Shown here one piece after another: positions 14,837 through 31,796 of a stretch of DNA of 64,000 nt. Each line of letters opens with the position of its first letter. The stretch's first letter is position 1. Under the pieces are notes generated by a model, which was not told the origin of the DNA, did not search any database, and saw only the letters and a program-made list of their open reading frames with translations. This DNA comes from Thalassovita aquimarina (lineage in GTDB: Bacteria > Pseudomonadota > Alphaproteobacteria > Rhodobacterales > Rhodobacteraceae). The position numbers were made by a program, and so were the translations under genes. The DNA is taken from positions 1-64,000 of the forward strand of contig NZ_JADMKU010000012.1 of the NCBI RefSeq assembly GCF_018219815.1. The letters are read 5' to 3'.

Positions 14837-17019
14837 CCCGATTCTGGAATGCCAGATACATTGTCGTCATCCTTCTGGGGATTGCCGCTGTCGCCGGCTA
14901 TGCGACCTACGAATATCGCAACGGGCATCTGAGCCAGGAGAATTCCCGCCGCGTCGTCCAGATCATCAATTCTGCGCGCCTGACCTTCAAGATCGACAAG
15001 CTGAGCGGCAGGGCGCAGGAAGCCTATCAAAACGCGGTGCTGACGCAGAACGAGGCGGGCCTGGACGAGGCCTTGAACTATCTGCTTGGCGCAAAGGGCT
15101 TTGTGAACAGCCCCTACCTGTACCGGTACGAAGAGTTGCAGGTGGTGATCGGCCATATCGAGGAGAGCCGGCGCTTGATAGAAGAAGCGGGGCTTTCGCC
15201 AAGCCCCGAGCAGTTGGCCGAACTGCGCCGCAGGGTCGCACAGATCGACCGGATTACCGCGCAATACGAACAGGGCATCTATTCGGCCTACATGACCGAA
15301 TACAGCAAGGGGCAGACAGAGAACCTCAAGGCGTCTCTTGGCATGCGGACATTGCTGGTGGCGCTGCTGGTGGCGCTGGTCGTCTTCGGGGTCATCGCTC
15401 TGTTCTTGCGGGCCGAACAGGTGCAGCATAACAAGCGGGTCGAGGCCGAATATGCCAGCAAGGCGAAATCGGCCTTCCTGGCGAATATGAGCCACGAAAT
15501 CCGGACGCCGATAAACGGCATCGTCGGCATGATCGAGCTGTTGCAGAAAACCACCGAACTGAACGACGACCAGAGGCGGATGATCGAGGTTGTCCGCGAT
15601 TCTTCGTATTTCCTGATGCGGATCATCGACGACATTCTGGATGCGTCGAAGATCGAGGCGGGCAAGCTCGAGATCGAAAGAACCGAATTTGCGCTGATCG
15701 AAGCGGTCGAAAAGGCCGCGGAATCGCTGGCATTGCAGGCGCAAAAGAGCAATGTGCAGTTCCTGATCGTTGTGGACGCGGATGTGCCGGACTGGGTCGA
15801 AGGCGATCCCTTGCGGTTGCGCCAGATTCTGCTGAACCTTCTCAGTAACGCGATCAAGTTTTCCAATTGGGGCGAAACCGAAGACAAGCGGGGCTTCGTC
15901 CAGCTTTGGGTCGACCGCGACAGCGAAGAGGGCTTCATCCGGTTCCGGGTGATCGACCACGGCATCGGCATGACCGACGAAACGATAAGGACCGTGTTCA
16001 GGCCGTTCCAGCAGGCCGAGCAATCCACGACCCGCCGCTTCGGCGGGACCGGGCTTGGCCTCGTGATCACCCGCAACCTGATCGACCTGATGGGCGGCGA
16101 GCTTGAGGTGAAGAGCAAAGTCGGCCGGGGCACGACCTTCACGGTTCGCCTGCCGTTTGCCCGGAAGGACGGCGGGGCAGGTACGGCCCGGATCGAAGGG
16201 ACCAAGCTGATCCTGCAGATGGACAAGCCGATCTATAACGAACGGATCGCCCGTTTTTATGAATATCGCGGGGCCGATGTTATCGTGCCGAACAGTCGAG
16301 AAGAGCTGTTGGCTGCCGCTGCCGAAGCGGATGACGAAGCGGTGCTGATGCTGGCGCTTGAAACGCTGGAAGAAAACCTTGATCTTGTCGACCGGGTCAT
16401 CGAATGCAATCCGGACTGCAACATTCTGGTGCTCGACCCGACCCGCGAAAATCCGAAGGGGCTGATCAAGAAGCGGCTCTATATTTCCTACCGGTTCCCG
16501 ATGCAGTTGACGGACACCGTGCGCGGCATCGCCATGCTGACCGGCCGGATTGCGCGCGATGCCGTGAACGGGGAGGCGCCGTCCGCCGCCCTGTCCGCCA
16601 AGGCGCGGATGCCAAATCCGGGGCCGGTGCTGGTCGTCGAAGACAATCCGCTGAACATGGCCGTTCTGTCCCGGCAGTTGGAATTGCTGGGCGTCGGTTT
16701 CGAAACCGCGACGAACGGTGCGGAAGGGTTTTCGAAGTGGCGGGAAAACGGTTTCGACATGGTGCTGACCGATTGCCAGATGCCGGTGATGGACGGGTTG
16801 GAAATGACGCGGAAAATACGCGCTTTCGAGGCCGACGGCGGCGACCGGAAAACCGCGATCATCGCGATTTCGGCCAGCGCCCTGAAAGAAGAGGCCGAGC
16901 GCAGTTTCGAGGCCGGGGTCAGCGATTACCTGACCAAGCCGGTGCAGACCGCGGCATTGGAACAGGCGTTGCGGAAATGGCATCGCCGAAGCGGTTCCGA
17001 ACCGCCACTCGACGCCTGA
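14797..17019 (+). CDS. Hybrid sensor histidine kinase/response regulator
   Basis: The protein has 740 residues. A transmembrane helix at ~18-36 and another at ~183-205 flank a ~145-residue periplasmic helical sensor domain. The HisKA dimerisation helix holds the phosphoacceptor His233 in ANMSHEIRTPINGI. The HATPase domain follows with NLLSNAIKFS (N box), DHGIGM (G1) and FGGTGLGLVI (G2). A degenerate receiver-like segment lies at ~465-590, then a C-terminal receiver begins at ~609 with VVEDNPLNM, acceptor Asp659 in LTDCQMPVMDG and Lys in YLTKPV. There is no HPt domain, so an external phosphotransfer partner is expected. The start overlaps the secreted domain gene by 40 bases. Confidence 0.92.
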   Translation: MDLDDHPDRIQKVTRFWNARYIVVILLGIAAVAGYATYEYRNGHLSQENSRRVVQIINSARLTFKIDKLSGRAQEAYQNAVLTQNEAGLDEALNYLLGAKGFVNSPYLYRYEELQVVIGHIEESRRLIEEAGLSPSPEQLAELRRRVAQIDRITAQYEQGIYSAYMTEYSKGQTENLKASLGMRTLLVALLVALVVFGVIALFLRAEQVQHNKRVEAEYASKAKSAFLANMSHEIRTPINGIVGMIELLQKTTELNDDQRRMIEVVRDSSYFLMRIIDDILDASKIEAGKLEIERTEFALIEAVEKAAESLALQAQKSNVQFLIVVDADVPDWVEGDPLRLRQILLNLLSNAIKFSNWGETEDKRGFVQLWVDRDSEEGFIRFRVIDHGIGMTDETIRTVFRPFQQAEQSTTRRFGGTGLGLVITRNLIDLMGGELEVKSKVGRGTTFTVRLPFARKDGGAGTARIEGTKLILQMDKPIYNERIARFYEYRGADVIVPNSREELLAAAAEADDEAVLMLALETLEENLDLVDRVIECNPDCNILVLDPTRENPKGLIKKRLYISYRFPMQLTDTVRGIAMLTGRIARDAVNGEAPSAALSAKARMPNPGPVLVVEDNPLNMAVLSRQLELLGVGFETATNGAEGFSKWRENGFDMVLTDCQMPVMDGLEMTRKIRAFEADGGDRKTAIIAISASALKEEAERSFEAGVSDYLTKPVQTAALEQALRKWHRRSGSEPPLDA

Positions 17020-17120
17020 GACGCGGCGCGAAACGTCTGGGCATTGCCGCGAAGCACGGTTGCCGGTCCGGCCCCGCACGGGGGTGGGCGTGACGCACCG
17101 GTGAACTTCTTTGTCCCTGG

Positions 17121-17450
17121 TCAGGCCGTCTGAACAGACCCCAGAAGCCCGCCGTCGACGACACGGCGGACAAAGGGCGCCATCCCTTCGGGGCCGGATT
17201 CGCGGTCCTTGATATGGATGCAGACATCCGGGCGTTTCATCGCGATCACGCTGATCAGGTCGCCGCGCATCTCGTCGTCAAGGCTGCCGCCCATGATGAC
17301 GCAGCAGATGTCGGGTTCGGTGTCCAGTTGCCGGATCACTTCGCCATGATCATGCGCGCCGAGCCAGCGGATCGGCAGGTGGTCCAGTTCCCTGGCCACA
17401 TCGCCGATGACATTGGGCAGTTTGCCCACCAGAAGCACTACGGGATTCAT
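17121..17450 (-). CDS. Small hypothetical protein, receiver-like fold
   Basis: The protein has 109 residues starting at the ATG at 17450, directly preceded by a very strong AAGGAGGAGGAA. It begins MNPVVLLVGKLPNVIGDVARELD and alternates beta strands and helices like a degenerate response-regulator receiver: strand VVLLVG, then CCVIMGG in place of the phosphorylation strand, and VCIHIKD. No conserved phosphoacceptor Asp is evident. It runs convergent to the hybrid kinase and divergent from pgsA. The function is unknown. Involvement in the kinase pathway is possible from position only. Confidence 0.7.
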   Translation of the reverse strand: MNPVVLLVGKLPNVIGDVARELDHLPIRWLGAHDHGEVIRQLDTEPDICCVIMGGSLDDEMRGDLISVIAMKRPDVCIHIKDRESGPEGMAPFVRRVVDGGLLGSVQTA

Positions 17451-17582
17451 TTCCTCCTCCTTACCTGTCCCGGGGCGGATAGGTTTTTCCATCGGGTCGG
17501 CCCCGGGATAAACCCATCATAGCACAGAATGTGGTGAAACGCCTGCTTCCCCCCGGTCGGAAGACAGGCTATTCAAGGCGTT

Positions 17583-18245
17583 ATGAACTGGACGATCCCC
17601 AATATCCTGACCGTTATCCGGCTTGCCGCCGCGCCCGGCGTGGCCGTGATGTTCCTGTATTTCGCCCGGCCCTATGCCGATTGGTTCGCGCTGCTGCTGT
17701 TCATCGGTGCGGCGGTGACCGATTGGTTCGACGGCTACCTAGCCCGGCTTTGGGGGCAGGAAAGCAAGATCGGCGCGATGCTCGACCCGATCGCGGACAA
17801 GGCGATGGTGGTGATCGCGCTGATGGTAATCGTGGGCTATTCGTCGATGTCGCCCTGGCTGGTGCTGCCGGCGACCTTCATCCTGTTCCGCGAAATCTTC
17901 GTGTCGGGCCTGCGCGAATATCTGGGCGATACCGCCGGCACGCTGAAAGTGACCAAGCTGGCCAAGTGGAAAACCACTCTCCAGATGTTTGCCATCGCGA
18001 CCCTGTTTGCCCACGGCGTGTTCGAGCACTATTTCGGAATGAGCAGCCTTGGCATGGATGCGGGCATCGTCGAAGACATCCTTGCCGGGCGCGAAGAAGA
18101 CGTTGTTGGCCTGGGCTGGAAAATGCGCGGCATGATCTGGTCCGCCAATCTGGGGCTTGTCCTGCTCTGGGTCGCGGCTCTGCTGACGCTGATCACCGGG
18201 TATGACTATTTCCGCAAGGCCCTGCCGCATCTGAAGGACGACTGA
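17583..18245 (+). CDS. pgsA: CDP-diacylglycerol-glycerol-3-phosphate 3-phosphatidyltransferase
   Basis: This 220-residue inner-membrane enzyme makes phosphatidylglycerol phosphate, the committed step to phosphatidylglycerol. The CDP-alcohol phosphotransferase motif DWFDGYLARLWG, then GAMLDPIADK is complete, with the four catalytic aspartates. N-terminal WTIPNILTVIRLAAAPG is typical of PgsA. It is slightly longer than usual because of an insertion between later helices (residues ~150-185). moaD starts one base after its stop, so the three genes pgsA, moaD and moaE form one transcript. Confidence 0.95.
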   Translation: MNWTIPNILTVIRLAAAPGVAVMFLYFARPYADWFALLLFIGAAVTDWFDGYLARLWGQESKIGAMLDPIADKAMVVIALMVIVGYSSMSPWLVLPATFILFREIFVSGLREYLGDTAGTLKVTKLAKWKTTLQMFAIATLFAHGVFEHYFGMSSLGMDAGIVEDILAGREEDVVGLGWKMRGMIWSANLGLVLLWVAALLTLITGYDYFRKALPHLKDD

Positions 18246-18246
18246 C

Positions 18247-18492
18247 ATGGACGTTTTGTATTTCGCCTGGGTTCGCGAACGTATCGGCATCCCGCGGGAA
18301 AAGGTCGAAACCTCGGCCGCGACGGTGGCCGATCTGGTCGCGGAACTGCGCACCCGCGAAGAACGCTACGAGGTGGCCTTTTCCGACCTCAGCGCGCTGC
18401 GCGTCGCGGTCGATCAGGAACTGACCGATTTCGACGCATCGCTGGATGGCGCGCGGGAAGTGGCTTTCTTCCCGCCCATGACCGGGGGCTGA
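18247..18492 (+). CDS. moaD: Molybdopterin synthase small subunit
   Basis: This 81-residue ubiquitin-like protein starts MDVLYFAWVRERIG and ends in the essential Gly-Gly (PPMTGG), which is thiocarboxylated to donate sulfur for the molybdopterin dithiolene. The core VADLVAEL and the segment before the tail, FFPPMTGG, are diagnostic. It begins one base after pgsA and ends one base before moaE, implying translational coupling and one operon. Confidence 0.95.
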   Translation: MDVLYFAWVRERIGIPREKVETSAATVADLVAELRTREERYEVAFSDLSALRVAVDQELTDFDASLDGAREVAFFPPMTGG

Positions 18493-18493
18493 A

Positions 18494-18937
18494 ATGATTA
18501 TCCGGGTACAGTCCGAACCGTTCGATCTTGGCGCGGAAACCAACGCCTTCGCCGATGCGCAGAATGGCATGGGCGCGGTGGTGACCTTCACCGGCATCGT
18601 GCGCGACCTGCCGGGTGAAGGTCTGGACCGGATGGAAATCGAACATTATCCCGGCATGACCGAAAAGGCGCTTGAGAAGATCGCGCAACAGGCGTCGGAG
18701 CGGTGGGACCTGGGCGACGTTCTGATCATCCACCGCTATGGGAACCTGAAGGCGGATGACCGGATCATGATGGTGGCGACATCGTCGCGCCACCGTGTCC
18801 ATGCCTTCGAGGCGGCGGAATTCCTGATGGATTATCTGAAATCCCGCGCCCCGTTCTGGAAAAAGGAATTCACCGCCTCGGGCGCCGAATGGGTCGCCGC
18901 CAAGGATGCGGACGAAGCGGCGCTGGACCGCTGGTGA
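18494..18937 (+). CDS. moaE: Molybdopterin synthase catalytic subunit
   Basis: This 147-residue large subunit of molybdopterin synthase forms a heterotetramer with MoaD. The MoaE signatures are visible: GAVVTFTGIVRDLPGEG near residue 28, EHYPGMTEKALEKI, HRYGNLKADDRIMMVATSS, and the catalytic basic segment RAPFWKKEF near the C-terminus. It probably supplies the cofactor used by molybdoenzymes elsewhere. It ends head-on against the ferredoxin gene with adjacent stop codons. Confidence 0.95.
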   Translation: MIIRVQSEPFDLGAETNAFADAQNGMGAVVTFTGIVRDLPGEGLDRMEIEHYPGMTEKALEKIAQQASERWDLGDVLIIHRYGNLKADDRIMMVATSSRHRVHAFEAAEFLMDYLKSRAPFWKKEFTASGAEWVAAKDADEAALDRW

Positions 18938-19252
18938 TCAGACTTCCGGCACGATCAGTACCAGACCGTCGAGATCGCCGCGCGCGGTGATCTGGCAGGA
19001 CAGGCGCGAATTGTCCTGCCGGGGGGCTTCGGCCGCGTCGAGCATGGCGTCTTCGAAATCGTCCGCCGTTCCGGTTTTGCCGGCCCATGCCGCTTCGACA
19101 TAGACGTGGCAGGTGGCGCAGCTGAGATTGCCGCCGCATTCGCCGATCACGTTCGGCACGTTGTTGGCGACGGCGGCCTCCATCATGTTCAGCCCGTCAT
19201 CGACATCAGCGGTGATTTCGCCGCCATCGGGCAGTTTCCAGGTCACTTTCAT
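18938..19252 (-). CDS. [2Fe-2S] ferredoxin, putidaredoxin type
   Basis: The protein has 104 residues from the ATG at 19252, which has GAGG nine bases upstream; the ATG at 19258 has too short a spacing. The cluster ligands follow the C-x5-C-x2-C pattern in CGGNLSCATC plus a distal Cys in RLSCQI, as in adrenodoxin/putidaredoxin-type proteins that pass electrons to P450s. It is the third gene of a P450, GS-like, ferredoxin operon and is the obvious electron donor to that P450. No ferredoxin reductase gene is present in the window, so it must be supplied from elsewhere. Confidence 0.92.
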   Translation of the reverse strand: MKVTWKLPDGGEITADVDDGLNMMEAAVANNVPNVIGECGGNLSCATCHVYVEAAWAGKTGTADDFEDAMLDAAEAPRQDNSRLSCQITARGDLDGLVLIVPEV

Positions 19253-19263
19253 CGGCATGTTCC

Positions 19264-20553
19264 TCAGACGAACCAGACATAGAAGTCGCGCAATTGGTCG
19301 CCTTCCAGATCCTTGGTTTTCTTGACTTCCTTTTCCTTCATGAAGACGTGGTTGGCGACCAGTTCCGCCCCCACCGCGTCGCCCAGCACCGTGTCGGTCT
19401 TCAGATCGGCAATCGCGCCCTTCAGGGTAACGGCGGCGCTGTCCTTGGCGTCCCAGTTTTCGAACCCGTCGCCGGTTTCGATCGGTCCCAGATCGTATTT
19501 GTTCACCACGCCCAGACGCGCGGCCTGCAGCACCGCGGCGGTGGCGGTATAGGGATTGGCCGAGGCATCGGCGGTGCGGTGTTCCAGCCGCGCCTTGGCG
19601 CCGCCTTCGGAGGATATCCGCGTGGTCACGTTGCGATGGTCGCCGCCCCAGTTGCACCAGAATCCCGACAGCGATCCCGGCTGCAGCCGCTGGTAGGAAT
19701 TGGCGGTGGGCGCGATCAGCCCGGCCAGCCCCTTGTGATGGTGCATCAGTCCCGCAACGCAGCCGCGCGCCAGGTCGTTCATGCGCTCCGGCCCGCCCTT
19801 TTCGCCGCTCGACAGCGCGTTGCCGCCGGCTTCGTCCAGGAAGGAGAAATTCACATGCAGCCCCGATCCGCTGGCCTCGGCGATCGGTTTGGGCAGGAAG
19901 GACAGAACGATGCCGTGTTCCAGCGCTATCTCGCGCGCCATCAGGCGGAACAGCACGATATCGTCCACCGCCCTGACCGCTTCGTCGAAGGTCAGCGTGT
20001 ATTCGAATTGCGGGCTGTCATATTCGGCGGTGATCATGTCGAGCCGGAAGCCCAGTTCGTCCGCCTTTTCCCAGATCGCGTCGTTGAACCGCATCGGGTC
20101 GGTGAAGTTGCCGGTGCCGTAGACATGCGCGCCGGGGGTGTCATAGGGCACAAGCCGGCCGTTTTCATCGGCGACCAGCGCATAGGCCTCCAGTTCCAGC
20201 CCGACCTTGGGCGTCAGCCCCAGTGCCTGCCAATCCTTCACGGCCCGTTTCAGCGCCTGCCGTCCGCACAAGGGCAGGGGCTGTCCGTCGGTGTCGTACA
20301 GGTCGCCCACCACGATCTTGGTGGCCCGTTCCCAGCTGTCGCGGATTTCCTCGCCGTGCCAGTGCAGTTCCATGTCCGGCAGGCCCTGCATCATCATCGC
20401 GCCGGGCGCGTCGAGCAGATCCTTGTCGTAATGCACCCCGAAGGTGGACCGGCAGAACCGGGTCGTGCCATCGCCGATCTTCGATCCGGGCAGGTATTTG
20501 CCCCGCATGATCGACAGGTGATCGCAAAATAACGCGCGCAGGCGTGTGTTCAT
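19264..20553 (-). CDS. Glutamine synthetase-like gamma-glutamyl ligase
   Basis: The protein has 429 residues, shorter than ammonia-assimilating GS type I. The catalytic barrel is clear: GLELEAYALV (metal Glu), EYDSPQFEYTL, ASGSGLHVNFSF (ATP/metal His), NSYQRLQPGSLSG, then LEHRTADASANPYT. The usual NPYKRL is NSYQRL here, and the Tyr/Arg that select ammonia differ, as in PuuA/IpuC-type enzymes. These attach glutamate to an amine using ATP. Placed between a P450 and its ferredoxin, it probably tags an amine substrate as a gamma-glutamylamide. It starts 10 bases after the P450 stop. Confidence 0.88.
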   Translation of the reverse strand: MNTRLRALFCDHLSIMRGKYLPGSKIGDGTTRFCRSTFGVHYDKDLLDAPGAMMMQGLPDMELHWHGEEIRDSWERATKIVVGDLYDTDGQPLPLCGRQALKRAVKDWQALGLTPKVGLELEAYALVADENGRLVPYDTPGAHVYGTGNFTDPMRFNDAIWEKADELGFRLDMITAEYDSPQFEYTLTFDEAVRAVDDIVLFRLMAREIALEHGIVLSFLPKPIAEASGSGLHVNFSFLDEAGGNALSSGEKGGPERMNDLARGCVAGLMHHHKGLAGLIAPTANSYQRLQPGSLSGFWCNWGGDHRNVTTRISSEGGAKARLEHRTADASANPYTATAAVLQAARLGVVNKYDLGPIETGDGFENWDAKDSAAVTLKGAIADLKTDTVLGDAVGAELVANHVFMKEKEVKKTKDLEGDQLRDFYVWFV

Positions 20554-20563
20554 CGTTGGCTCC

Positions 20564-21820
20564 CTATTTGGCGACTACCTTGACCGGCAGTTCCTTGATC
20601 CCGCCCACGAAATTCGAGCGCAGGAATTTATGCGGGCCGTTGGCCTCTATTGATCTGATCCGCTTGGCGAGTTCCGGGAACAGCACACGGACCTCCAGCC
20701 GGGCCAGCCACATGCCCAGACAAACATGCGGGCCGCCCTGGCCAAAGGACAAATGTTTGTTGGGCGTGCGTTTCAGGTTCACCCGGAAGGGATCGTCGAA
20801 CACGGTTTCATCGCGGTTGGCCGAGGACCACCAGTACAGCACCTTGTCGCCTTCCCGGATGGTCTTGCCGTGCATTTCGACGTCCCTAGTGGCGGTGCGG
20901 CGGAAATAGAGCGCGGGCGTGGCCCAGCGGATGATTTCATCCGGCGCGGTGTCCCAGATGTCTTCGGTTTGCATCTGGGCCAGCAATTCGGGCTGGTGGC
21001 ACATCGCCTGAATGCCTGCGGCGATGGAATAGCGGGTGGTGTCGTTGCCGGCGGCGACCAGCAGGCAGAAGAAGTTGCGGAATTCTTCTTCGGTGATCAC
21101 GCTGCCATCCTTGGCCGGTTGCAGGATCAGGTGCAGGACGCCGCTGGTGTCGCCGGCCGCGTCCTTCCTCGCCATCAGCTCCTTGGCATAGTTGTAAAGC
21201 TCGGCCCCCGCGGGCGAATTGAACGGCATCAGGCGGAATTCGTCCGTCGTCATCTTGTCGAGCACGTGATCGGTGAAATCCGGGTCGGTATTGGCGATCA
21301 GCGCATCGCCCTTTTCCACCAGCCAAGGCAGGTCTTCCTCGGGCAGGCCAAGGATCCGGCCCAGCATCCGCATCGGCAATTGCCGCGCGATGTCCTTGGT
21401 GGCGTCGAAGCTGCCCTTTTCCAGCGCCACGTCGAGGATGTCGTCGCAAAGCGCGCGGATATCGTTCTCGAATTCGGCGATGACCGGCTTGGAAAACGCC
21501 TTGGCCACCTTGATCCGGGTCATCATGTGTTCCGGCGGGTCGGTTTCCTGGAAGGTGCGCCGGGCGAGGTATTCCTCGTAGGTCTGGTCCTCCATCCGGA
21601 TGCCGCGGGCAGAGGAGAAAATCTGCGGCTGGCGGTTCATTTCGGAAATGTCGGCATGGCGGGTGATCGACCAGAACCCTTCGCCGCCGTCCCAGTCTGT
21701 CCAGTGCACCGGGTCGTCGCGGCGCAGCCGGGCAAAGGTGTTGTGCGGCGCGCCGGTCACAAAGGTATCGTGGCTGGTCAGGTCGGCGAAACCGTCGTCG
21801 GTGGGGGTCCAGACCGTCAT
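20564..21820 (-). CDS. Cytochrome P450
   Basis: The protein has 418 residues; three consecutive ATGs (21826, 21823, 21820) follow AGAGG and the last has the best spacing. Hallmarks: I-helix AGNDTTRYSIAAG for oxygen activation, DEIIRWATP (ExxR), and the heme-binding loop FGQGGPHVCLGMW with the axial Cys. It is a soluble class I bacterial enzyme needing a ferredoxin, which is encoded two genes downstream. It leads the operon with the GS-like ligase, so a hydroxylation or N-dealkylation of a glutamylated or free amine is the likely reaction. The substrate is unknown. Confidence 0.95.
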   Translation of the reverse strand: MTVWTPTDDGFADLTSHDTFVTGAPHNTFARLRRDDPVHWTDWDGGEGFWSITRHADISEMNRQPQIFSSARGIRMEDQTYEEYLARRTFQETDPPEHMMTRIKVAKAFSKPVIAEFENDIRALCDDILDVALEKGSFDATKDIARQLPMRMLGRILGLPEEDLPWLVEKGDALIANTDPDFTDHVLDKMTTDEFRLMPFNSPAGAELYNYAKELMARKDAAGDTSGVLHLILQPAKDGSVITEEEFRNFFCLLVAAGNDTTRYSIAAGIQAMCHQPELLAQMQTEDIWDTAPDEIIRWATPALYFRRTATRDVEMHGKTIREGDKVLYWWSSANRDETVFDDPFRVNLKRTPNKHLSFGQGGPHVCLGMWLARLEVRVLFPELAKRIRSIEANGPHKFLRSNFVGGIKELPVKVVAK

Positions 21821-21837
21821 CATCATACCTCTTGTTG

Positions 21838-21849
21838 TTAACTTGTTAC
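21838..21849. promoter_or_regulatory. Operator-like TTAACTTGTTAC in the divergent P450/amidotransferase promoter
   Basis: The 82-base AT-rich gap between the P450 ATG and the amidotransferase ATG contains TTAACTTGTTAC. It matches 10 of 12 bases of the perfect palindrome TTAACATGTTAA upstream of the decarboxylase operon at 25532. A common regulator, most simply the GntR protein encoded at 22674, is inferred. Confidence 0.45.
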
Positions 21850-21902
21850 GTATATTAAAAAGCGCTATAAATATGTAAAGAAAAATCTCAGGCGGGACCG
21901 GA

Positions 21903-22610
21903 ATGCGTATCGCGATCTTGATGACGAACACCGATGAAAGCGAATTTGCCGAACAGCATCAGAAGGATGGTGAAAAATTCACCGCCCTTTTGCAGCTCGC
22001 CCGGCCGGACTGGCGGACGCAGGTCTTCGCGGTCAAAGACGGGATCTTTCCCGAATTGCTCGAAGGTTTCGATGGTGTGCTGATCACCGGCAGCCCGGCC
22101 TCGGTTCATGACTGCGATCCCTGGGTGGGGCGGCTCTTGGACCTGATCCGCGAAATCGTGGCAAAGGGCCTGCCGCTGTTCGGCGCCTGTTTCGGCCATC
22201 AGGCGATCGCGCTGGCGCTTGGCGGCAAGGTCGAACGGAACCCCGGAGGCTGGGTGTTCGGCCGGACCGAAACCGAAGTGACCGACCGCGCCGCGTGGAT
22301 GCAAGGGTTGCCCGACCGGATCGGTCTCTATGCCGCCCATGTCGAACAGGTCACGAAACTGCCCGACGGCGCCCGCATCCTGAGCGCAAACGCCGAGTGC
22401 GCCGCCGGCGCCTTCGCCATCGGCGACCGGGTCTACACCACCCAGTACCACCCGGAAATGACCCCCAATTTCATCGCCGCCCTGACTGAGGAAATGCAGG
22501 GCAAGCTGCCCGGGGACGTGCTGGCAAAGGCCCGCGCCTCGCTCTCCGCCCGCGCCGACACCGAAGCCTTCGCCGAAAGCCTGGCGCTGTTCTTCGAACA
22601 GGCGCAATAA
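21903..22610 (+). CDS. Class I glutamine amidotransferase-like hydrolase (possible gamma-glutamyl-amide hydrolase)
   Basis: The protein has 235 residues and a stand-alone GATase1 fold. The catalytic triad is intact: Cys96 in FGACFGHQAIA, and His183 and Glu185 in QYHPEMT. Such stand-alone domains in amine pathways (PuuD, AtdA2 relatives) hydrolyse or transfer gamma-glutamyl groups. The gene is divergent from the P450 and GS-like operon across a short shared promoter. Together with the GS-like ligase it would form the attach and release steps of a gamma-glutamylation route. The pathway role is inference; the fold is certain. Confidence 0.85.
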   Translation: MRIAILMTNTDESEFAEQHQKDGEKFTALLQLARPDWRTQVFAVKDGIFPELLEGFDGVLITGSPASVHDCDPWVGRLLDLIREIVAKGLPLFGACFGHQAIALALGGKVERNPGGWVFGRTETEVTDRAAWMQGLPDRIGLYAAHVEQVTKLPDGARILSANAECAAGAFAIGDRVYTTQYHPEMTPNFIAALTEEMQGKLPGDVLAKARASLSARADTEAFAESLALFFEQAQ

Positions 22611-22673
22611 CCGCTTTTTCTTGGCAGAAATACCCGCGGGGGAGCCCCGCAGGGGCGGGGGCGGCAGCCCCCT

Positions 22674-23324
22674 TCACCCCAGTGCGGCCAGAAGATCCAG
22701 CGCGGTCACATGGTCGAAATGCACATGCGCCTCCATCGCGGCCTCGGCTTCTGCCGATTTGCGCGCGGTGATCAGGTCGGCGATCTGCCGGTGTTCGCGG
22801 GCCGAGGCCGCGATCACCCCGGCATAGTGATAACGCGCCCGGTAGTAGGCCATCAGCTTGCGCGCGTTCATCTTGATCATGTCCAGCAGGAAGGGATTGC
22901 CCGCCGCTTCGGCTACTACCCGGTGGAAATCGAGGTTGAGCTGGTAATACTGGTCCGGTTCCGCGTCGCCCAGCCGCGCGGCATGGTCCTCGCAGGCGAC
23001 CACCGCCGCTTCTAGCGCGGCGCGGTGGCTGGGCGACAGGCGGCGCGCGGCCAGTCCCGCCGCCTGGCCTTCCAGCTTGGCGTGGACCTCGAGGATGGCG
23101 AGGAATTCCTCCAGCGTCGGCTTGAACACCACCGCGCCCTTGCGCGGGGTGCGGCGGATCAGGCCGGCGGTTTCCAGCTGGATCAACGCCTCGCGCACCG
23201 GGGTGCGCGACACGTTGTGGGTGTTGATCAGGGTCTGTTCCTCGATCACGCCGCCGGGATTCAGCGCGCCGCTTTCGATCGCGTCGAGGATCGCGGTGAT
23301 GATCGTGTCGGTCTGCCCCGCCAT
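22674..23324 (-). CDS. GntR-family transcriptional regulator (FCD type)
   Basis: The protein has 216 residues: an N-terminal winged helix-turn-helix (residues ~5-70, with NTHNVSRTPVREALIQLETAGLI) and an FCD helical ligand domain (LNLDFHRVVAEAAGNP, later MEAHVHFDHV). It is the last gene of the decarboxylase-aldolase-GntR unit, 7 bases after the aldolase stop. It probably regulates its own operon and the P450/amidotransferase pair through TTAACATGTTAA-like palindromes. The effector would be an amine or acid of the pathway; it is not known. Confidence 0.9.
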   Translation of the reverse strand: MAGQTDTIITAILDAIESGALNPGGVIEEQTLINTHNVSRTPVREALIQLETAGLIRRTPRKGAVVFKPTLEEFLAILEVHAKLEGQAAGLAARRLSPSHRAALEAAVVACEDHAARLGDAEPDQYYQLNLDFHRVVAEAAGNPFLLDMIKMNARKLMAYYRARYHYAGVIAASAREHRQIADLITARKSAEAEAAMEAHVHFDHVTALDLLAALG

Positions 23325-23331
23325 CCGTCTG

Positions 23332-24096
23332 TTATTTCCACTGCGCCATGGTTGCCCGCGCCGCCTTGGCCAGCATGACGACGTCGATGCCCACGGCCAG
23401 GAACTGCGCGCCCCAGTCGCGGTATTCGGATGCCACGGCCTGATCCACCGCCAGGATGCCGGCGGCCTTGTCCGACGCCGCGATTTTGCCCAGGCAGTCC
23501 TTGATCACCGCGCGCACCTCGTCATGGCCGCTCTGGCCCGAATGACCCAGATCGGCGGCCAGGTCGGACGGGCCGATGAAGACACCGTCGACGCCCTCGA
23601 CGGCGAGGATCGCATCGAGGTTTTCCACCCCCTTGCGGGTTTCGACCTGCAGTAGCAGGCAGATCTGTGCGTTGGCGGTCTGGATGTAATCGGGAATGTC
23701 GGAAAAGCGCGAAGCGCGGGCCAATGCTGCGCCCGATCCACGAATGCCCTCGGGCGGGTAGCGGCAGGCACGGACCAGATCGCGGGCCTGCTCGGCGGTT
23801 TCCACCATCGGGATCAGCAGCGTCTGCGCGCCGACGTCCAGCGCCTGCTTGATCAGCCACTCGTTGCCGATGGGCAGGCGCACCACGCCCTCGGAATGTT
23901 TGCCGTCGAGGATCTGCAGCTGGTGCATTATGCTGCGCAGGTCGTTGGGCGCGTGTTCGCCGTCGATCACCAGCCAGTCGAAATTCGCGGTGGCGAGGAT
24001 TTCGGTCGCATAAGGATCGGCAAACCCGGCCCAGCAGCCGTACTGCATGTCGCCCCGCTTCAGCGCGGCCTTGAAGGTGTTGAGTGGTGCGGGCAT
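23332..24096 (-). CDS. HpcH/HpaI-family aldolase
   Basis: The protein has 254 residues. It has the class II pyruvate aldolase barrel: FDWLVIDGEHAPND at ~40-53 (catalytic acid), VRLPIGNEW, LLQVETRKGVENLDAI (metal Glu), GVDGVFIGPSDLAADLGH (metal Asp). The family splits or makes 2-keto-4-hydroxy acids from aromatic catabolism using a divalent metal. It overlaps neither neighbour but lies one base from the decarboxylase stop, so the two are cotranslated. The acceptor aldehyde is unknown. Confidence 0.9.
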   Translation of the reverse strand: MPAPLNTFKAALKRGDMQYGCWAGFADPYATEILATANFDWLVIDGEHAPNDLRSIMHQLQILDGKHSEGVVRLPIGNEWLIKQALDVGAQTLLIPMVETAEQARDLVRACRYPPEGIRGSGAALARASRFSDIPDYIQTANAQICLLLQVETRKGVENLDAILAVEGVDGVFIGPSDLAADLGHSGQSGHDEVRAVIKDCLGKIAASDKAAGILAVDQAVASEYRDWGAQFLAVGIDVVMLAKAARATMAQWK

Positions 24097-24097
24097 G

Positions 24098-25513
24098 TCA
24101 GGCGTCCTTCAGTCGGTTGGCGGTTTCCACGATCACGTCGAAAGCGGTGTCGATATCGTCTTGGGTACAATCAAATTGCCCGGCCTGGAAGCGGATCACC
24201 AGTTTGCCGTCGGTGCGGGTCTGGGTCAGGTAGATGCGGCCACCGTCGTTGATCGCGTTGATCAGCGCCAGCGTGGCGTCGTCCGCGTCCTGCCCTTCGG
24301 GCGTGAAGCGGAAGGTGAACAGCGACAGAACCGGGTCGGTGACGATTTCGATATCGGGCACCGCGCGCAGCCTTTCGGCCAATCCTTGCGACCACGTCAC
24401 GTGGTTGCGGATCATCCGGCGCAGCCCGTCCAGGCCATAGGCGCGGATCAGGAACCACAATTTCAGCGCCCGGAACCGGCGGCCCAGCGGCACAGACCAT
24501 TCGGAATAGTTGATGATCCCGTCGGCGCCGTGGGTTTTAAGGTATTCCGGCTGGATCGCGAGCGTGCGGGTCAGGTCCTCGGGCGATTTGACGAAATGGG
24601 CCGACAGGTCGAACTGGGTGCCCAGCCATTTATGCGGGTTGAAGACGATGGAATCGGCGGCTTCCACCCCTTGCCACAACTCGCGGTATTCGGGGCAGAT
24701 CATCGCCGCCCCGGCCCAGGCCGCGTCGACATGGGTATAGAGGTCGTATTTCTTCGCCACCGCGATGGTGGCGGCGATGTCATCGCAGGCGCCGGTGCCG
24801 GTGCCGCCGGTGCAGGCGACCACGCCCGCGGGCAGGTAACCGGCCTCGATATCGGCCTTGATCGCGTCTTCCAGCGCTGCCGTATCCATCGACCGCAGCG
24901 GCCCCCGGGTGGGAATGCGCACCAGGTTGGCCTGGCCGATCCCGGCGATCCAGATCGCCCGGTCGACCGAGGTATGAACCTCGTTCGAACAATAGACCCG
25001 CAGCGGTTTCTGACCCGGCAGCCCGTTGGCGTTGCCGTCCCAGTTCAGCACGCGTTCGCGCATCACCAGCACGGCGGCAAGGGTGGCCGAGGACGCGCTG
25101 TCCTGGATGACGCCGGAAAAGCCGGTGGGCAGGCCCAGCGACTGGCGCAGCCAGTCCATCATGCGGGTTTCCATCTCGGTCGCGGCGGGCGAGGTCTGCC
25201 ACAGCATGCATTGCGGCGCCATCGCGGTGACAAGGTTGTCGGCCAGAACCGCGGCGGGCGAGGCGTTGGAGGGGAAATAGGCGAAGAAGCGGGGATGCTG
25301 CCAATGGGTGATGCCGGGCATCACGATGGATTCGAAATCGGCGACGATATCCTCGATCGGCTGCGGTGCGTCGGGGGGCGATGCGGGCAGTTGCGCCATC
25401 ACCTCGCCCGGCTTGGTCTGCGCCCGCACCGGCCGGTCGCGCAGGCCCGCGTGGTACTTGGCCGCCCAATCTGCCGCCCATTTGCCCCATTTGGGGAATT
25501 CGCTCCACCGCAT
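24098..25513 (-). CDS. PLP-dependent decarboxylase, aromatic-L-amino-acid type
   Basis: The protein has 471 residues, the size and architecture of group II decarboxylases (DOPA, phenylalanine, tyrosine, tryptophan). N-terminal HPRFFAYFPSNASPAAVLADN is typical. HVDAAWAG carries the PLP-pairing Asp263 and NPHKWLG carries the Schiff-base Lys295. The DEGEN-like SEWSVPLGRRFRALKLWF follows. It would produce an aromatic amine, or in some relatives an aldehyde. It leads the operon with an aldolase and GntR gene. A palindromic operator lies 19 bases upstream of the ATG. The specific amino acid cannot be assigned. Confidence 0.88.
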   Translation of the reverse strand: MRWSEFPKWGKWAADWAAKYHAGLRDRPVRAQTKPGEVMAQLPASPPDAPQPIEDIVADFESIVMPGITHWQHPRFFAYFPSNASPAAVLADNLVTAMAPQCMLWQTSPAATEMETRMMDWLRQSLGLPTGFSGVIQDSASSATLAAVLVMRERVLNWDGNANGLPGQKPLRVYCSNEVHTSVDRAIWIAGIGQANLVRIPTRGPLRSMDTAALEDAIKADIEAGYLPAGVVACTGGTGTGACDDIAATIAVAKKYDLYTHVDAAWAGAAMICPEYRELWQGVEAADSIVFNPHKWLGTQFDLSAHFVKSPEDLTRTLAIQPEYLKTHGADGIINYSEWSVPLGRRFRALKLWFLIRAYGLDGLRRMIRNHVTWSQGLAERLRAVPDIEIVTDPVLSLFTFRFTPEGQDADDATLALINAINDGGRIYLTQTRTDGKLVIRFQAGQFDCTQDDIDTAFDVIVETANRLKDA

Positions 25514-25531
25514 GATTGCCTCCTCTTTATA

Positions 25532-25551
25532 TTAACATGTTAATTAACATG
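25532..25551. promoter_or_regulatory. Overlapping palindromes upstream of the decarboxylase operon
   Basis: TTAACATGTTAA (25532-25543) is a perfect 12-base palindrome, overlapping CATGTTAATTAACATG (25536-25551), a perfect 16-base palindrome. It sits about 20 bases before the decarboxylase start, where a repressor would block transcription. A related TTAACTTGTTAC lies upstream of the P450 gene. GntR-type binding is inferred; the symmetry is seen. Confidence 0.65.
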
Positions 25552-25605
25552 CGTGCCGTATTTGCGGCAAGGGCAATCGAACACCGGTCTGGGGGAAGGT
25601 CAAGA

Positions 25606-25636
25606 ATCAAAGAAGCGGCCCCCGAGAGGGCCGCTT
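25606..25636 (-). terminator. Terminator after the DUF2783 gene
   Basis: AAGCGGCCC (25613-25621) pairs with GGGCCGCTT (25628-25636) around CCGAGA. Read on the minus strand it is followed by a T-rich CTTTGATTCTT. It lies 23 bases beyond the DUF2783 stop and would end the FAD/DUF2783 transcript. Confidence 0.65.
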
Positions 25637-25658
25637 CCGACTTTTCTACCGACGAGGA

Positions 25659-25868
25659 TCAACCGGGTTGATGTGTCGATTCCTTCGCAGCCTTCAGCGC
25701 CGCGACCAGCACCTCGCGATCGCCGATCTGGTTGGCCAGGATCAGGATCAGCCGGGCGTTCAGAGCGTCGCTTTCGGCCTTGCTCAGCCCTTCGTGGACG
25801 GCCAGCAGGTCAGCATAGAAGTCATCGGCATTGTCGATATTCGGCGTCAGGGTCAGGGTCAGGGACAT
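25659..25868 (-). CDS. DUF2783 small protein
   Basis: The protein has 69 residues from the ATG at 25868, with AAGGAG 7 bases upstream. It begins MSLTLTLTPNIDNADDFYADLL and continues as two helices (LSKAESDALNARLILILANQIGD). It matches my recollection of DUF2783 proteins found next to FAD monooxygenases in homogentisate clusters of Rhodobacterales. The gene is 4 bases after the FAD gene stop, so the two are translated together. Its role is unknown; a small accessory subunit of the monooxygenase is plausible. Confidence 0.75.
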   Translation of the reverse strand: MSLTLTLTPNIDNADDFYADLLAVHEGLSKAESDALNARLILILANQIGDREVLVAALKAAKESTHQPG

Positions 25869-25872
25869 CTGT

Positions 25873-27483
25873 TCACTCCTTGCCAATGGCGCGGCGGATC
25901 GCGGCGCGGGTTGCGGTTTCGTCGAATTTTTCCCAGCGGGCGGCGACGTGCTGATCCGGGCGGATCAGGTAGACGGCGGTTTCCGCCTCGCCCAGGTACC
26001 GTTCGGCCAGCGCCGGGTCGAGCGCTTCGCTGTAAAGCGACAGGCTGCCCACCTTGATGCCGCTTTCTTCCAGCTCCGCCGGGACGTCGGTGTTGATCGT
26101 CAGCAGGGTGAAGTCGTTGCCCAGCCGGTGCAGCAGGAAACCTTCGTCCAGCGGCGCATCGGGGCAGGGCGATCCGGGGCGCGTGCGGGCTGGACCGCCG
26201 GGCAGCGCATCCGGCGTGTTCAGCGCCGATCTGTCATAGGTGCAGGGCACCGACAAGCGGCCCGAGTTCACCAACGGGCGGGCGAATTCGTAATGTTCCG
26301 ACAGGTCCAGAACGGCATCGCGGAACAGACGGCTGGTTTCCGATTTCGGCGTGATGAAATCGGTCGAACGCGACGAATTGAGGATGTTTTCATCGGCGCC
26401 GTGGATCCGTTCGACATCGTAGCTGTCGAGCAGGCTCTCCGGGGCGAGACCTTCCATCACCAGTTTCAGTTTCCAGATCAGGTTGTCTGTATCCTGAAGC
26501 CCGGAATTCGCACCGCGGGCGCCGAAGGGCGACACCTGATGCGCCGCGTCGCCGGCAAAGATCACCCGGTTGTGACGGAACTGTTCCATCCGGCGGCACT
26601 GGAAGGTGTAGATCGACACCCATTCCAGGTCGAATTTGACATCCTCGCCCAGCATCGCCTTGAGCCGGGGAATGACGTTTTCGGGTTTCTTTTCCTCTTC
26701 CTTGTCGATGTCCCAGCCCAGCTGCAGGTCGATGCGCCAGACCCCGTCGGGCTGCTTGTGCAGAAGCGCCGACTGCCCCTTGTTGAAGGGCGGGTCGAAC
26801 CAGAACCAGCGTTCGGTCGGGAAGTCGGCCTCCATGATCACGTCGGCGATAAGGAAGTTGTCCTCGAAGACGCGGCCGACGAAATCCAGCCCCATCATCG
26901 CGCGGATCGGCGACGCGGCGCCGTCGCAGGCGATCAGCCAGTCGGCTTCAAGCGTGTACTGGCCTTCGGGCGTGTCGATCAGGATCTCGGTGTGATCGCC
27001 CTTGTCCGTGACCTTCAGAACCTTGTTGCCGCCGCGGATTTCGATCGGCGCGCCTTCGGCTTCCAGTTCGCGGGCGCGGTTCACCAGGTATTCTTCGAAA
27101 TAGTATTGCTGCAGGTTGATGAAGGCGGGGAATTCGTGGCCGGTTTCCGGCAGCAAGTTGAATTCATAGACCTTGCGGTCGTCGAAGAACACCTTGCCGG
27201 TGTCCCACACCACGCCCTTGTCGACCATCGGGTGGCCGCAGCCAAGCCGGTCGAGGATTTCCAGTGGCCGCTTGGCGAAACAGATCGCCCGGCTGCCGAA
27301 GCTGACCTTGTCGTTGTCGTCGACGACGATCGCCTCGATCCCCTGCTGCGCCAGGTCGATGGCGGCGGCCAGCCCGATCGGGCCCGCGCCCACCACCACG
27401 ACCTTGCGCCGCACCGGCTTTGCCGCGTCCTGATCGGCGCTGCGGGCATAGGGGTAGAGGGGGATTTCGAAAATCTTGTTCAT
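25873..27483 (-). CDS. FAD-dependent aromatic monooxygenase
   Basis: The protein has 536 residues from MNKIFEIPLYPYARS; the frame is open further upstream but without conserved sequence. It belongs to the PHBH/MhpA flavoprotein hydroxylases: dinucleotide motif VVVVGAGPIGLAAAIDLA (~30-47), WLIACDGAASPIR (DG motif), and AGDAAHQVSPFGARGANSG (GD motif). A C-terminal thioredoxin-like domain (LLTINTDVPAEL) is partly visible. Adjacent to hmgA and fahA, it may hydroxylate a phenylacetate or related aromatic to feed homogentisate. The substrate is inferred. Confidence 0.88.
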   Translation of the reverse strand: MNKIFEIPLYPYARSADQDAAKPVRRKVVVVGAGPIGLAAAIDLAQQGIEAIVVDDNDKVSFGSRAICFAKRPLEILDRLGCGHPMVDKGVVWDTGKVFFDDRKVYEFNLLPETGHEFPAFINLQQYYFEEYLVNRARELEAEGAPIEIRGGNKVLKVTDKGDHTEILIDTPEGQYTLEADWLIACDGAASPIRAMMGLDFVGRVFEDNFLIADVIMEADFPTERWFWFDPPFNKGQSALLHKQPDGVWRIDLQLGWDIDKEEEKKPENVIPRLKAMLGEDVKFDLEWVSIYTFQCRRMEQFRHNRVIFAGDAAHQVSPFGARGANSGLQDTDNLIWKLKLVMEGLAPESLLDSYDVERIHGADENILNSSRSTDFITPKSETSRLFRDAVLDLSEHYEFARPLVNSGRLSVPCTYDRSALNTPDALPGGPARTRPGSPCPDAPLDEGFLLHRLGNDFTLLTINTDVPAELEESGIKVGSLSLYSEALDPALAERYLGEAETAVYLIRPDQHVAARWEKFDETATRAAIRRAIGKE

Positions 27484-27601
27484 CTGGTTCCTCCCAGCTG
27501 CAAACAAATCTCTGCTGTTCCCCTCGGGCGTCCGCCCAAGGGGGTGCGGGATGAACCCGCCGGACCGCCCCGTTGCCGGGGCGATCCCATGACCTTTGGG
27601 A

Positions 27602-28552
27602 TCAGCCCTGCAGGGCCTCCCACATTTCCAGATCGCGCTGCGCGGTCCAGATCCGCGGCGTGTCGATGCCGCGCGCTTCGTCATAGGCGCGCGCCACGTT
27701 GAACGGCAGGCAATGTTCGTAGATCGCGTAGTCGCTGAACTTCGGATCGCATTCGGCGCGCACCGCGTCCCAGGCTTCCTTCAGAGACCCGCCGCGCGCG
27801 GCGACCTTGGCGGCCGGGCGGTAGGTGCTTTCTACGAAATCGCGGGTATTCTCGATCGCGGCGTTGACCATTTCCCGGCCCACAAGCGCGTCGCCGCGGC
27901 CCGGCGCGATGGCGTCGACATCGAACCACTTGATCGCGTCCAGGGTGTCGCCCCAGTCGTTGAAATGGCCGTCGCCGCAGTAGCAGGCCGAATGGTATTC
28001 GACGATATCGCCGGTGAACATCACGTTCTGATCGGGCACGTGGATCACGATGTCGCCCGCGGTATGGGCGCGGCCCAGATGCATCAGGTCGACACGGCGG
28101 TTGCCCAGATAGACGGTCATCGAATCGCTGAACGTGGTGGTCGGCCAGGTCAGGCCGGGGATGCTTTCATGGCCTTCGAACAGGCGCGGGAAGCGCTGGA
28201 ATTCGCTGTCCCAGTCTTCCTGCCCGCGTTCCACCACCATCGAACGGGCGGTGTCGGACATCAGGATCTGTTGCGCGCCGAAAGCCGACGCGCCCAGCAC
28301 GCGGACCGCGTGGTAATGGGTCAGCGCGACGTGGGTGATCGGTTTGTCGGTCACGCTGCGGACGCATTCGATCACCTTGTTGGCCAGCCGCGGGGTGGCC
28401 TGTGCCTCGACGATCATCACGCTGTCGTCACCGATGATCACGCCCGAGTTCGGATCGCCCTCGGCGGTGAAGGCGTAGAGCCCTTCGCCGACTTCGGTGA
28501 AGCTGATGGTTTTTTCGGTCATGTCCCCCTGGGACGCGAATGCCTTTGCCAT
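27602..28552 (-). CDS. MBL-fold metallo-hydrolase with altered metal motif
   Basis: The protein has 316 residues, beta-lactamase fold. The central motif normally HxHxDH reads THYHAVRVLG here, so the two residues after the second His (Asp and His) are replaced. The later ligands are present: HLGRAHTAGDIV and MFTGDIVEYH. One metal site should therefore be weakened or lost. It lies between fahA and the FAD monooxygenase in the same direction, 12 bases after the fahA stop, and probably hydrolyses a pathway ester or lactone. Function is unproven. Confidence 0.85.
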   Translation of the reverse strand: MAKAFASQGDMTEKTISFTEVGEGLYAFTAEGDPNSGVIIGDDSVMIVEAQATPRLANKVIECVRSVTDKPITHVALTHYHAVRVLGASAFGAQQILMSDTARSMVVERGQEDWDSEFQRFPRLFEGHESIPGLTWPTTTFSDSMTVYLGNRRVDLMHLGRAHTAGDIVIHVPDQNVMFTGDIVEYHSACYCGDGHFNDWGDTLDAIKWFDVDAIAPGRGDALVGREMVNAAIENTRDFVESTYRPAAKVAARGGSLKEAWDAVRAECDPKFSDYAIYEHCLPFNVARAYDEARGIDTPRIWTAQRDLEMWEALQG

Positions 28553-28564
28553 TTTGCTGTTCCT

Positions 28565-29821: not shown

Positions 29822-29870
29822 TCGCGTTTCCTTTTCGCGCGGGCGGTGGGGCATCCCCCACCGGCCACGA

Positions 29871-31226: not shown

Positions 31227-31252
31227 GGCGCGTTCTCCTTTTCGCTTGTGCT

Positions 31253-31277
31253 GTTAATAGTTGATTTTGTAACTAAC
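31253..31277. promoter_or_regulatory. Imperfect palindrome between hmgA and marR
   Basis: GTTAATAGTT (31253-31262) faces AACTAAC (31271-31277), with arms AGTT/AACT around 8 bases and partial extension on both sides. It sits between the divergent hmgA (31226) and MarR (31296) starts and would suit a MarR dimer. Function is inferred from position. Confidence 0.45.
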
Positions 31278-31295
31278 AACCGATGGAGGCCGGAA

Positions 31296-31742
31296 ATGAC
31301 CGAAAAACATGACTTCGATTTGCAAAATTTTCTGCCTTACCTGCTGAATCAGGCGGCAGAGGAAAGCAGCCTTGCGTTCCAGCAGGTTTACAAGGACCGC
31401 TACGGCATGTTGCGTACCGAATGGCGGGTGCTGTTTCATCTTGGCATCTATGGCCGGATGACGGCAAAGGAAATCGGCCAGCGGTCGAAAATGCACAAGA
31501 CCAAGATCAGCCGGGCGGTGGCGCGTCTGGGCGAACGCCGCTTCCTGACCCGGCAGCAGGATGACAGGGACCGGCGGCTGGAATACCTGGAACTGACCAA
31601 TCTGGGGCAGACGGCCTATCGCGACCTGCTGGGGGTGGCGAAAACCTATGATGCGAAACTGTCGGCCAGCCTGAGCGCGGAAGAGGACAGGGTGCTGCGC
31701 AGTGTGCTGCGCAAGCTGGCCAGTTTCGATACGGCCGACTAG
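31296..31742 (+). CDS. MarR-family transcriptional regulator
   Basis: The protein has 148 residues from ATG 31296 with GGAGG 6 bases upstream; the long open frame before it is antisense to hmgA. The winged helix-turn-helix is MTAKEIGQRSKMHKTKISRAVARLGERRFLTR (helix-turn-helix then recognition helix, read in two parts: AKEIGQRSKMHKTKI and SRAVARLGERRFLT). The wing is QQDDRDRRLEYLELT. Divergence from hmgA and the shared palindrome suggest it senses an aromatic such as homogentisate and controls the pathway. Confidence 0.9.
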   Translation: MTEKHDFDLQNFLPYLLNQAAEESSLAFQQVYKDRYGMLRTEWRVLFHLGIYGRMTAKEIGQRSKMHKTKISRAVARLGERRFLTRQQDDRDRRLEYLELTNLGQTAYRDLLGVAKTYDAKLSASLSAEEDRVLRSVLRKLASFDTAD

Positions 31743-31796
31743 GGGCTGCGGGTATCCCGGCAGCCGCTGTTGCGGTCCGTGTTTGGGTCGTGCGTG

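Follow-up and report, generated by a model that had tools for sequence, protein, structure and literature searches.

Organization of the P450/GS Locus

The stretch of DNA analyzed here (the window) comprises the first 64,000 nucleotides of contig NZ_JADMKU010000012.1 of Thalassovita aquimarina and harbors a four-gene unit encoding a [2Fe-2S] ferredoxin, a glutamine synthetase (GS)-like ligase, a cytochrome P450, and a divergent class I glutamine amidotransferase (GAT)-like hydrolase. The ferredoxin, a putative redox partner of the P450 (18938–19255, minus strand; Fer2, E = 1.7e-9), carries four cysteines (Cys40/46/49/87) with the spacing C-x5-C-x2-C. The GS-like protein (19264–20553, minus strand) matched Gln-synt_C with an E-value of 1.8e-67 (228 bits) and is a putative gamma-glutamyl amine ligase. 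The P450 (20564–21820, minus strand) was identified from its motifs and from matches to PDB structures, the closest being CYP125MRCA followed by CYP126, CYP125, and CYP124. The I-helix motif AGNDTT was found at 257, the ExxR motif as EIIRW at 295, and the heme-binding motif as FGQGGPHVCLG with Cys367; the protein thus has the acid–threonine pair, ExxR, and heme cysteine by which catalytic competence is predicted. The amidotransferase (21903–22610, plus strand; GATase, E = 1.7e-21) showed the cysteine motif GACFG and the His-Glu motif YHPE. All four genes are real and apparently intact, and the original prediction, made from the sequence alone, that they lie together in one locus was borne out by the domain and motif matches.

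The P450 open reading frame (ORF) that opens at a GTG at 21931 overlaps the amidotransferase gene. Homologues (e.g., those of loci L049 and L055) and an AGAGG ahead of three in-frame ATGs indicate that translation probably starts at one of these ATGs, at 21820–21826, and therefore that a divergent promoter region of ∼80 bases separates the two genes. This region holds a promoter-like element, TTTACA-16-TAATAT, for the P450-GS-ferredoxin operon (21852–21879, minus strand), which is unique in the window (expected 0.00); a similar box was present in 33 of 64 homologous regions, as compared to 0.2 in shuffled sequences.

Conservation of the Unit

A GTDB genome scan with the window GS as query yielded 55 loci. 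Almost all carry Rhodobacteraceae, or a genus of this group, in their titles; the exceptions were Limnohabitans (L055) and a gammaproteobacterium (L057). The P450 was present in all 55, the amidotransferase in 51, and the ferredoxin in 48. Other frequent neighbors were a GntR regulator (35), an IclR regulator (33), TctC (32), the class III transaminase AT5 (31), a PuuC-like aldehyde dehydrogenase (ALDH; 24), an HpaI-like aldolase (20), an aromatic-L-amino-acid decarboxylase (AADC; 19), and a Tm-1-like protein (16), along with the fumarylacetoacetase, metallo-beta-lactamase-fold, and FAD hydroxylase-like genes of the homogentisate operon (FAH, MBL, and FMO; 12 each). All these counts are lower bounds, as the flanks extended to at most 10 kb, some contigs were short, and several loci stopped at contig edges. 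Taurine-type genes, named by eye, were considered as members of the set and rejected; they were found on one flank in eight loci, mostly of Aliiroseovarius.

The distribution was further evaluated in a family sample of 149 genomes from 148 genera, own genome included, with cut-offs of 1e-100 for the P450 and 1e-90 for the GS. The P450 was found in 34 genomes and the GS in 36, eight of the latter forming a divergent group with 44–51% identity. All 34 P450-positive genomes held the GS, as against 2 of the 115 P450-negative ones, and this, together with the joint presence in 55 of 55 loci, shows that the grouping of P450 and GS is not due to chance. Across the phylum, a close P450 (≤1e-110) was present in 5 of 398 genomes, three of which lie outside the family; the other two are the own genome and a further member of the family. 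The module also exists in Rhodobacteraceae bacterium HIMB11 (L028), a seawater isolate.

Features of the GS-Like Ligase

The window GS is a member of the GS family by its Gln-synt_C match and scored far below the equivalog cut-offs of PuuA (NF045547, 181.6 bits against 650), GlnA, and type III GS. The DGSS motif and Glu327 are the ammonium-site residues of type I GS (GSI). Both were absent from the window GS, from 14 aligned homologues, and from four paralogues of the same genome, whereas the GlnA of this genome keeps DGSS as well as GFEAP (Glu327); the alignment is truncated at the N-terminus for some of the homologues and is poor over the DGSS columns, and the distant L105 and L108 sequences were left out as their matched stretches lack the N-terminus. 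The loss of these residues fits an organic-amine ligase of the GoaS/PuuA/AtdA1 kind, and by itself names no particular amine.

These losses argue against an ordinary nitrogen-assimilating GS that merely stands next to an unrelated P450 by chance or under general regulation. The conservation of the unit argues likewise, and so does the fact that P450 and GS have diverged in parallel (r = 0.93 over 82 loci, relatedness not removed); such an arrangement is therefore very improbable. The module originally proposed, in which an amine would be glutamylated, oxidized by the P450, and the glutamate recovered, is supported as an inference by the same motif losses and by the conserved unit; its last step is possibly not obligate. 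The amidotransferase may instead act as a safety valve, by analogy with the aniline system (PMC11335346).

A Palindrome Shared by the Unit, the AADC, and the hpa Genes

An exact palindrome, TTAACATGTTAA, was located at 25532–25543, 19 bases before the AADC gene. It fits TTAA-N4-TTAA, the footprinted HpaR site (PMC7180172). A candidate operator variant, TTAACTTGTTA, lies at 21838–21848 in the P450/amidotransferase promoter, beside the TTTACA-16-TAATAT element. The sequence TTAACNNGTTA occurs in the window only at 21838 and 25532 (expected 0.03), and the exact 12-mer TTAACATGTTAA has only two occurrences in the 4.33-Mb genome, one before the AADC gene and the other between hpaR and hpaF on another contig, C44 (position 216969). 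The sole one-mismatch site elsewhere in this genome (C1:56314) lies ahead of a gene recognized by eye as an MFS transporter and has no evident relation to the pathway.

A scan of 1.96 Mb of pathway loci, which include many related species and in which L047 and L078 are one and the same stretch, revealed 37 sites with at most one mismatch, as compared to 3 in one composition-matched simulation. Thirty-three of them lay immediately ahead of the AADC (11), hpaR/hpaF (10, of which 8 were assigned by script and those of L021 and L026 were added), P450/amidotransferase (8), hpaE (2), hpaD (1), and IclR/TctC (1). Four were unassigned, and two of these (L067 and L068) lie ∼115–120 bases ahead of Tct genes running in the direction of the GS. 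Among 64 distinct P450/amidotransferase regions, a site with at most two mismatches was present in 33 (shuffles 0.6) and absent from 31, and one with at most one mismatch was present in 7 (shuffles 0.05). Owing to the shared palindrome at these promoters and its fit to the published site, the P450-GS-ferredoxin, AADC-HpaI, and hpa genes appear to belong to one HpaR-type regulon, in which HpaR would be the binding protein.

The GntR regulator is the other candidate owner of the palindrome. Among 33 site-bearing loci, 7 had HpaR without GntR, 15 had GntR without HpaR, 5 had both, and 6 had neither, the window being scored under "neither" only because the table did not cover it, although it does have GntR. 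GntR was present in 20 of the 33 site loci versus 25 of 74 others, and HpaR in 12 of 33 versus 8 of 74. Locus content thus does not decide between the two, and we favor HpaR because of the fit to the published site and the presence of a site at hpaR/hpaF in L077, a locus devoid of the P450.

Neighboring Genes and the hpa Locus

Upstream of the P450-GS-ferredoxin operon, beyond the amidotransferase and on the minus strand, are the genes for a GntR/FCD regulator (22674–23324), an HpaI-like 4-hydroxy-2-oxoheptanedioate aldolase (23332–24096; TIGR02311, 359.9 bits, just under the cut-off of 368.8), and the AADC (24098–25513). The AADC is nearest to DOPA/tyrosine decarboxylases, its best PDB match being DOPA decarboxylase 7xin (E = 4.4e-107). 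The adjoining homogentisate operon, also on the minus strand, comprises an FAD aromatic hydroxylase-like protein (25873–27486; PRK08132, 799 bits against a cut-off of 416), a metallo-beta-lactamase-fold protein (27602–28522; Lactamase_B), fumarylacetoacetase (28565–29821; TIGR01266, 512.6 bits against 375.3), and homogentisate 1,2-dioxygenase HmgA (29871–31226; HgmA_N, 5e-109, and HgmA_C, 3.4e-71). Divergent from hmgA is a MarR-type regulator (31296–31742, plus strand), whose best NCBIfam match was BilQ, below cut-off, and which shares 24% identity with the HpaR of C44. A small ORF of ∼70 amino acids (25659–25868, minus strand) lies between the AADC and the FAD hydroxylase, and a cluster of such small ORFs (window ORF 25659–25886) recurs in 11 loci. 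No Rfam family was detected within 17000–32500.

Contig C44 of the same genome carries the genes for AT5, IclR, TctC, TctB, TctA, the PuuC-like ALDH, the Tm-1-like protein, and the remaining hpa genes; the IclR and Tct names were assigned by eye, and TctC matched no NCBIfam model. The companion class III transaminase is best matched by PDB entry 5lh9, an "omega transaminase," followed by 6s54, as judged with the L014 homologue as query. The ALDH scored 559 bits against a PuuC cut-off of 850. The C44 regulator was above the HpaR equivalog cut-off (TIGR02337, 135.9 against 121.2 bits), as were HpaE (790 against 638), HpaH (384 against 352), and two 3,4-dihydroxyphenylacetate dioxygenases (TIGR02298, 411 bits; TIGR02295, 422 bits) above theirs. 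HpaF (73 against 215), HpaG (158 against 276), and the HpaI encoded in the window (360 against 369) were below cut-off and were named with the help of gene order. HpaB (PF03241) had no match in this genome (G000). In other genomes, hpa genes are directly beside the P450/GS pair (L015, L018, L021, L024, L025, L026, L061, L066/L067, L070, L072, L075, L079, L084, and L087/L088), and L077 combines the hpa block with AADC, Tm-1, ALDH, and Tct but lacks P450/GS. The Tm-1-like protein, a frequent companion of the pathway, belongs to the PRK02399 group ("hypothetical protein") and was above cut-off in L063 (15197–16441). In L064, unrelated 3,4-dihydroxyphenylacetate dioxygenases of the LigB type and the glyoxalase type stand in tandem (3–806 and 829–1809), both above their cut-offs. 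In the Limnohabitans locus L055, the module and the gene for a Tct-type binding protein are followed by a malonyl-CoA synthase (17633–19177; PRK07514, 865 bits against 558).

Co-occurrence in the family sample was assessed by Fisher tests with phylogeny not removed. A homoprotocatechuate dioxygenase of either type was present in 32 of the 34 P450 genomes and in 22 of the 115 others (p = 8e-16; weak HpaD matches in G039 and G143 were left out), AT5 in 33 and 33, respectively (p = 1e-13), AADC in 30 and 41 (p = 4e-8), and HpaB in 5 and 12 (p = 0.54). The original reading allowed for a marine amine of unspecified kind; as the unit appears to belong to an HpaR-type regulon and to an aromatic pathway (AADC, hpa, and homogentisate), a phenethylamine formed from an aromatic amino acid is instead the probable substrate. 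The larger system of AADC, HpaI-like aldolase, homogentisate operon, and hpa pathway on another contig had been missed.

Other Architectures of the Module

In five loci, the P450 and GS are accompanied by a LigB dioxygenase, an HpaE-like ALDH, and an ADC-family protein. L110 and L111 are from other alphaproteobacterial families, L086 is a Novosphingobium plasmid, and L104 and L107 are plasmids of the Actinomycetota Streptomyces canus and Embleya, respectively. Identity across these loci was 56–60% for LigB (to L110), 47–65% for the ALDH, 53–64% for the ADC-family protein, and 72–79% for an FAH-family protein found in four of the five, with none in the available L107 sequence. L110 also has an AADC, a ferredoxin, and a ferredoxin reductase. 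No further ring hydroxylase was recognized inside the five clusters themselves. In this architecture, the LigB dioxygenase encoded alongside may open the catecholamine ring while glutamate is still attached.

Distant GS-GAT-P450 triads, whose P450s are 37–38% identical, constitute a third version of the module. One is found in Sagittula stellata (L105, 5920–9227), where genes for salicylyl-CoA hydroxylase and ring-hydroxylating dioxygenase lie nearby, and the other in Novosphingobium sp. KACC 22771 (L108). In a further group of loci (L009, L013, L014, L021, L026–L029, L031, L038, L054, and L056), a PRK06148-like class III enzyme (AT18) and an APH-type kinase are placed beside the Tct/ALDH genes, a pair resembling the kinase/phospho-lyase pair for an amino alcohol.

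Proposed Pathway and Alternatives

From the observed gene content, motifs, co-occurrence, and common operator-like palindrome, we infer, as a tentative assignment, a route under HpaR control by which a phenethylamine-type amine would be degraded, with tyramine as first choice and dopamine or a related amine as second. The amine would be either produced by the AADC from an aromatic amino acid or imported; the GS-like ligase would couple it to the gamma-carboxyl group of glutamate with ATP; and the ferredoxin-fed P450 would introduce a hydroxyl group into the conjugate, with ring C3 as the most likely position, giving gamma-glutamyl-dopamine from gamma-glutamyl-tyramine. The amidotransferase would cleave the gamma-glutamyl bond by hydrolysis, the C44 class III transaminase and PuuC-like dehydrogenase would convert the freed amine to 3,4-dihydroxyphenylacetate, and HpaD, E, F, G, H, and I would degrade the latter, with the homogentisate branch receiving monohydroxylated material. 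Ring hydroxylation by the P450 is preferred mainly because no other ring hydroxylase was recognized within the LigB-type clusters. That tyramine and dopamine feed hpa in Pseudomonas putida U (PMC7180172) also speaks for this route, as does the lack of an HpaB match in the own genome. It is conceivable, though held with more reserve, that the P450 acts only on the gamma-glutamyl conjugate and serves as an HpaR-controlled counterpart of HpaBC, converting glutamylated tyramine to glutamylated dopamine in roughly one in four of the genera sampled from the family; glutamate would then be both handle and shield.

Several observations weigh against the route via ring hydroxylation. TctABC carriers usually transport carboxylates, and the model leaves TctABC, the Tm-1-like protein, IclR, and a HAD protein without a role. 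HpaB is not avoided by P450 genomes: among dioxygenase-positive genomes, it was present in 5 of 32 with the P450 and 5 of 22 without (p = 0.72), and this lack of mutual exclusion does not support the P450 as a replacement of HpaBC. Moreover, 16 dioxygenase-positive genomes hold neither P450/GS nor HpaB, and in two of the 34 P450 genomes neither dioxygenase reached the cut-offs used; of these, G003 carries hpa genes of a divergent type next to the unit and G095 a homogentisate operon. In Ruegeria sp. TM1040 (L085, 13607–16321), the unit adjoins paaABCD of phenylacetate degradation and not hpa. The start of a second P450 was seen at the edge of L110, and a Rieske-domain gene ∼11 kb off in L086. 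The site in the window P450 promoter, TTAA-CTTG-TTAC, has two mismatches to the palindrome and one to TTAA-N4-TTAA. Transamination and dehydrogenation could also oxidize tyramine without glutamylation, which would be simpler. Finally, purified Serratia HpaR bound neither 4-hydroxyphenylacetate (4-HPA) nor 3,4-dihydroxyphenylacetate (3,4-HPA) (PMC10364317).

With the same amine and ligase, the P450 could hydroxylate the carbon beside the amide nitrogen. The resulting carbinolamide would decompose into glutamine and an arylacetaldehyde, which the PuuC-like dehydrogenase would convert to the arylacetate, and the amidotransferase would be a safety valve or a glutaminase. Any arylacetate product would be accounted for in this way, matching the hpa, homogentisate, and TM1040 paa neighbors, and 24 of the 55 loci have the dehydrogenase next to the unit; a hydrolyzing safety valve has a precedent in the aniline system (PMC11335346). 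This variant is nevertheless unlikely, as it leaves no need for the transaminase conserved in 33 of 34 P450 genomes, and the LigB-type clusters show no other recognized enzyme to form the catechol. Still less probable is a P450 hydroxylation at the benzylic position that yields an octopamine-type product, from which a kinase and a class III phospho-lyase would then give the arylacetaldehyde. The enzymes for it could be AT18 (below the PRK06148 cut-off) and the APH-type kinase, which accompany the unit in 12 of 55 loci, and AT18 is present in 18 of 34 P450 genomes versus 29 of 115 others (p = 0.003); at 1e-130, however, AT18 is missing from 16 of the 34, the own genome included.

Comparison With Known Systems

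The putrescine pathway consists of PuuA, B, C, D, and E, PuuB being an FAD oxidase. Counterparts of its ligase, oxidation step, PuuC-like ALDH, class I amidotransferase, and class III transaminase are found here, but the P450 takes the place of PuuB, the ligase and ALDH score far under the PuuA and PuuC cut-offs, and the neighbors are aromatic ring-cleavage genes.

The aniline and 1-naphthylamine systems (AtdA1–A5 and NpaA1–A5) likewise combine a GS-like ligase, a GAT-like hydrolase, an oxygenase acting after glutamylation, and catechol cleavage (PMC11335346). They differ in using a Rieske oxygenase on anilines with catechol as product, whereas here a P450 and ferredoxin are present and the neighbors point to arylethylamines and homoprotocatechuate. 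The window has the GS-like and GAT-like pair of an aniline-dioxygenase type operon, and no Rieske two-component dioxygenase was found among the proteins identified at 18938–31226. This common plan of GS, amidotransferase, oxygenase, and ring cleavage (PMC11335346), along with the Rieske dioxygenase genes near the GS-GAT-P450 triad of Sagittula stellata, raises the prospect of another aromatic amine meeting hpa/homogentisate. It could be a methoxylated or N-methylated phenethylamine, which the P450 would demethylate, or, by analogy with aniline dioxygenase, an aniline-type compound such as aminophenylacetate. We consider this improbable, as the AADC is bound to the set via the shared palindrome and co-occurrence, and an arylethylamine is therefore favored.

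The tyn-hpa catabolon of P. putida U resembles the present system in its hpa ring-cleavage genes, HpaR, TTAA-N4-TTAA sites, and tyramine/dopamine entry (PMC7180172). It differs in that hpaB is absent here and the genes are split over two loci, and in that the palindrome here is also found ahead of the AADC and, in variant form, ahead of the P450-GS operon. The cyclic-amine clusters of Gulosibacter molinativorax (PipA and MorA, CYP151) have a P450, ferredoxin parts, and a GS at neighboring locus numbers (PMC9477822); they concern cyclic amines and Actinomycetota, and the likeness is one of gene content. A full-text literature search, with most subscription papers outside its reach, returned no account of the P450/GS/hpa combination.

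Implications

If the proposed route is correct, the glutamylation-dependent amine pathways would gain a P450-based member, the conserved P450/GS pair, of which no description was found, would be assigned a function, and an HpaR regulon joining amine activation to ring cleavage would be defined. The class III transaminase accompanying the module belongs to the omega-transaminase type, and the natural substrates of such enzymes are of interest. With the P450 in 34 of 149 genomes of the family and the module in HIMB11, the turnover of biogenic aromatic amines would become testable with named genes.

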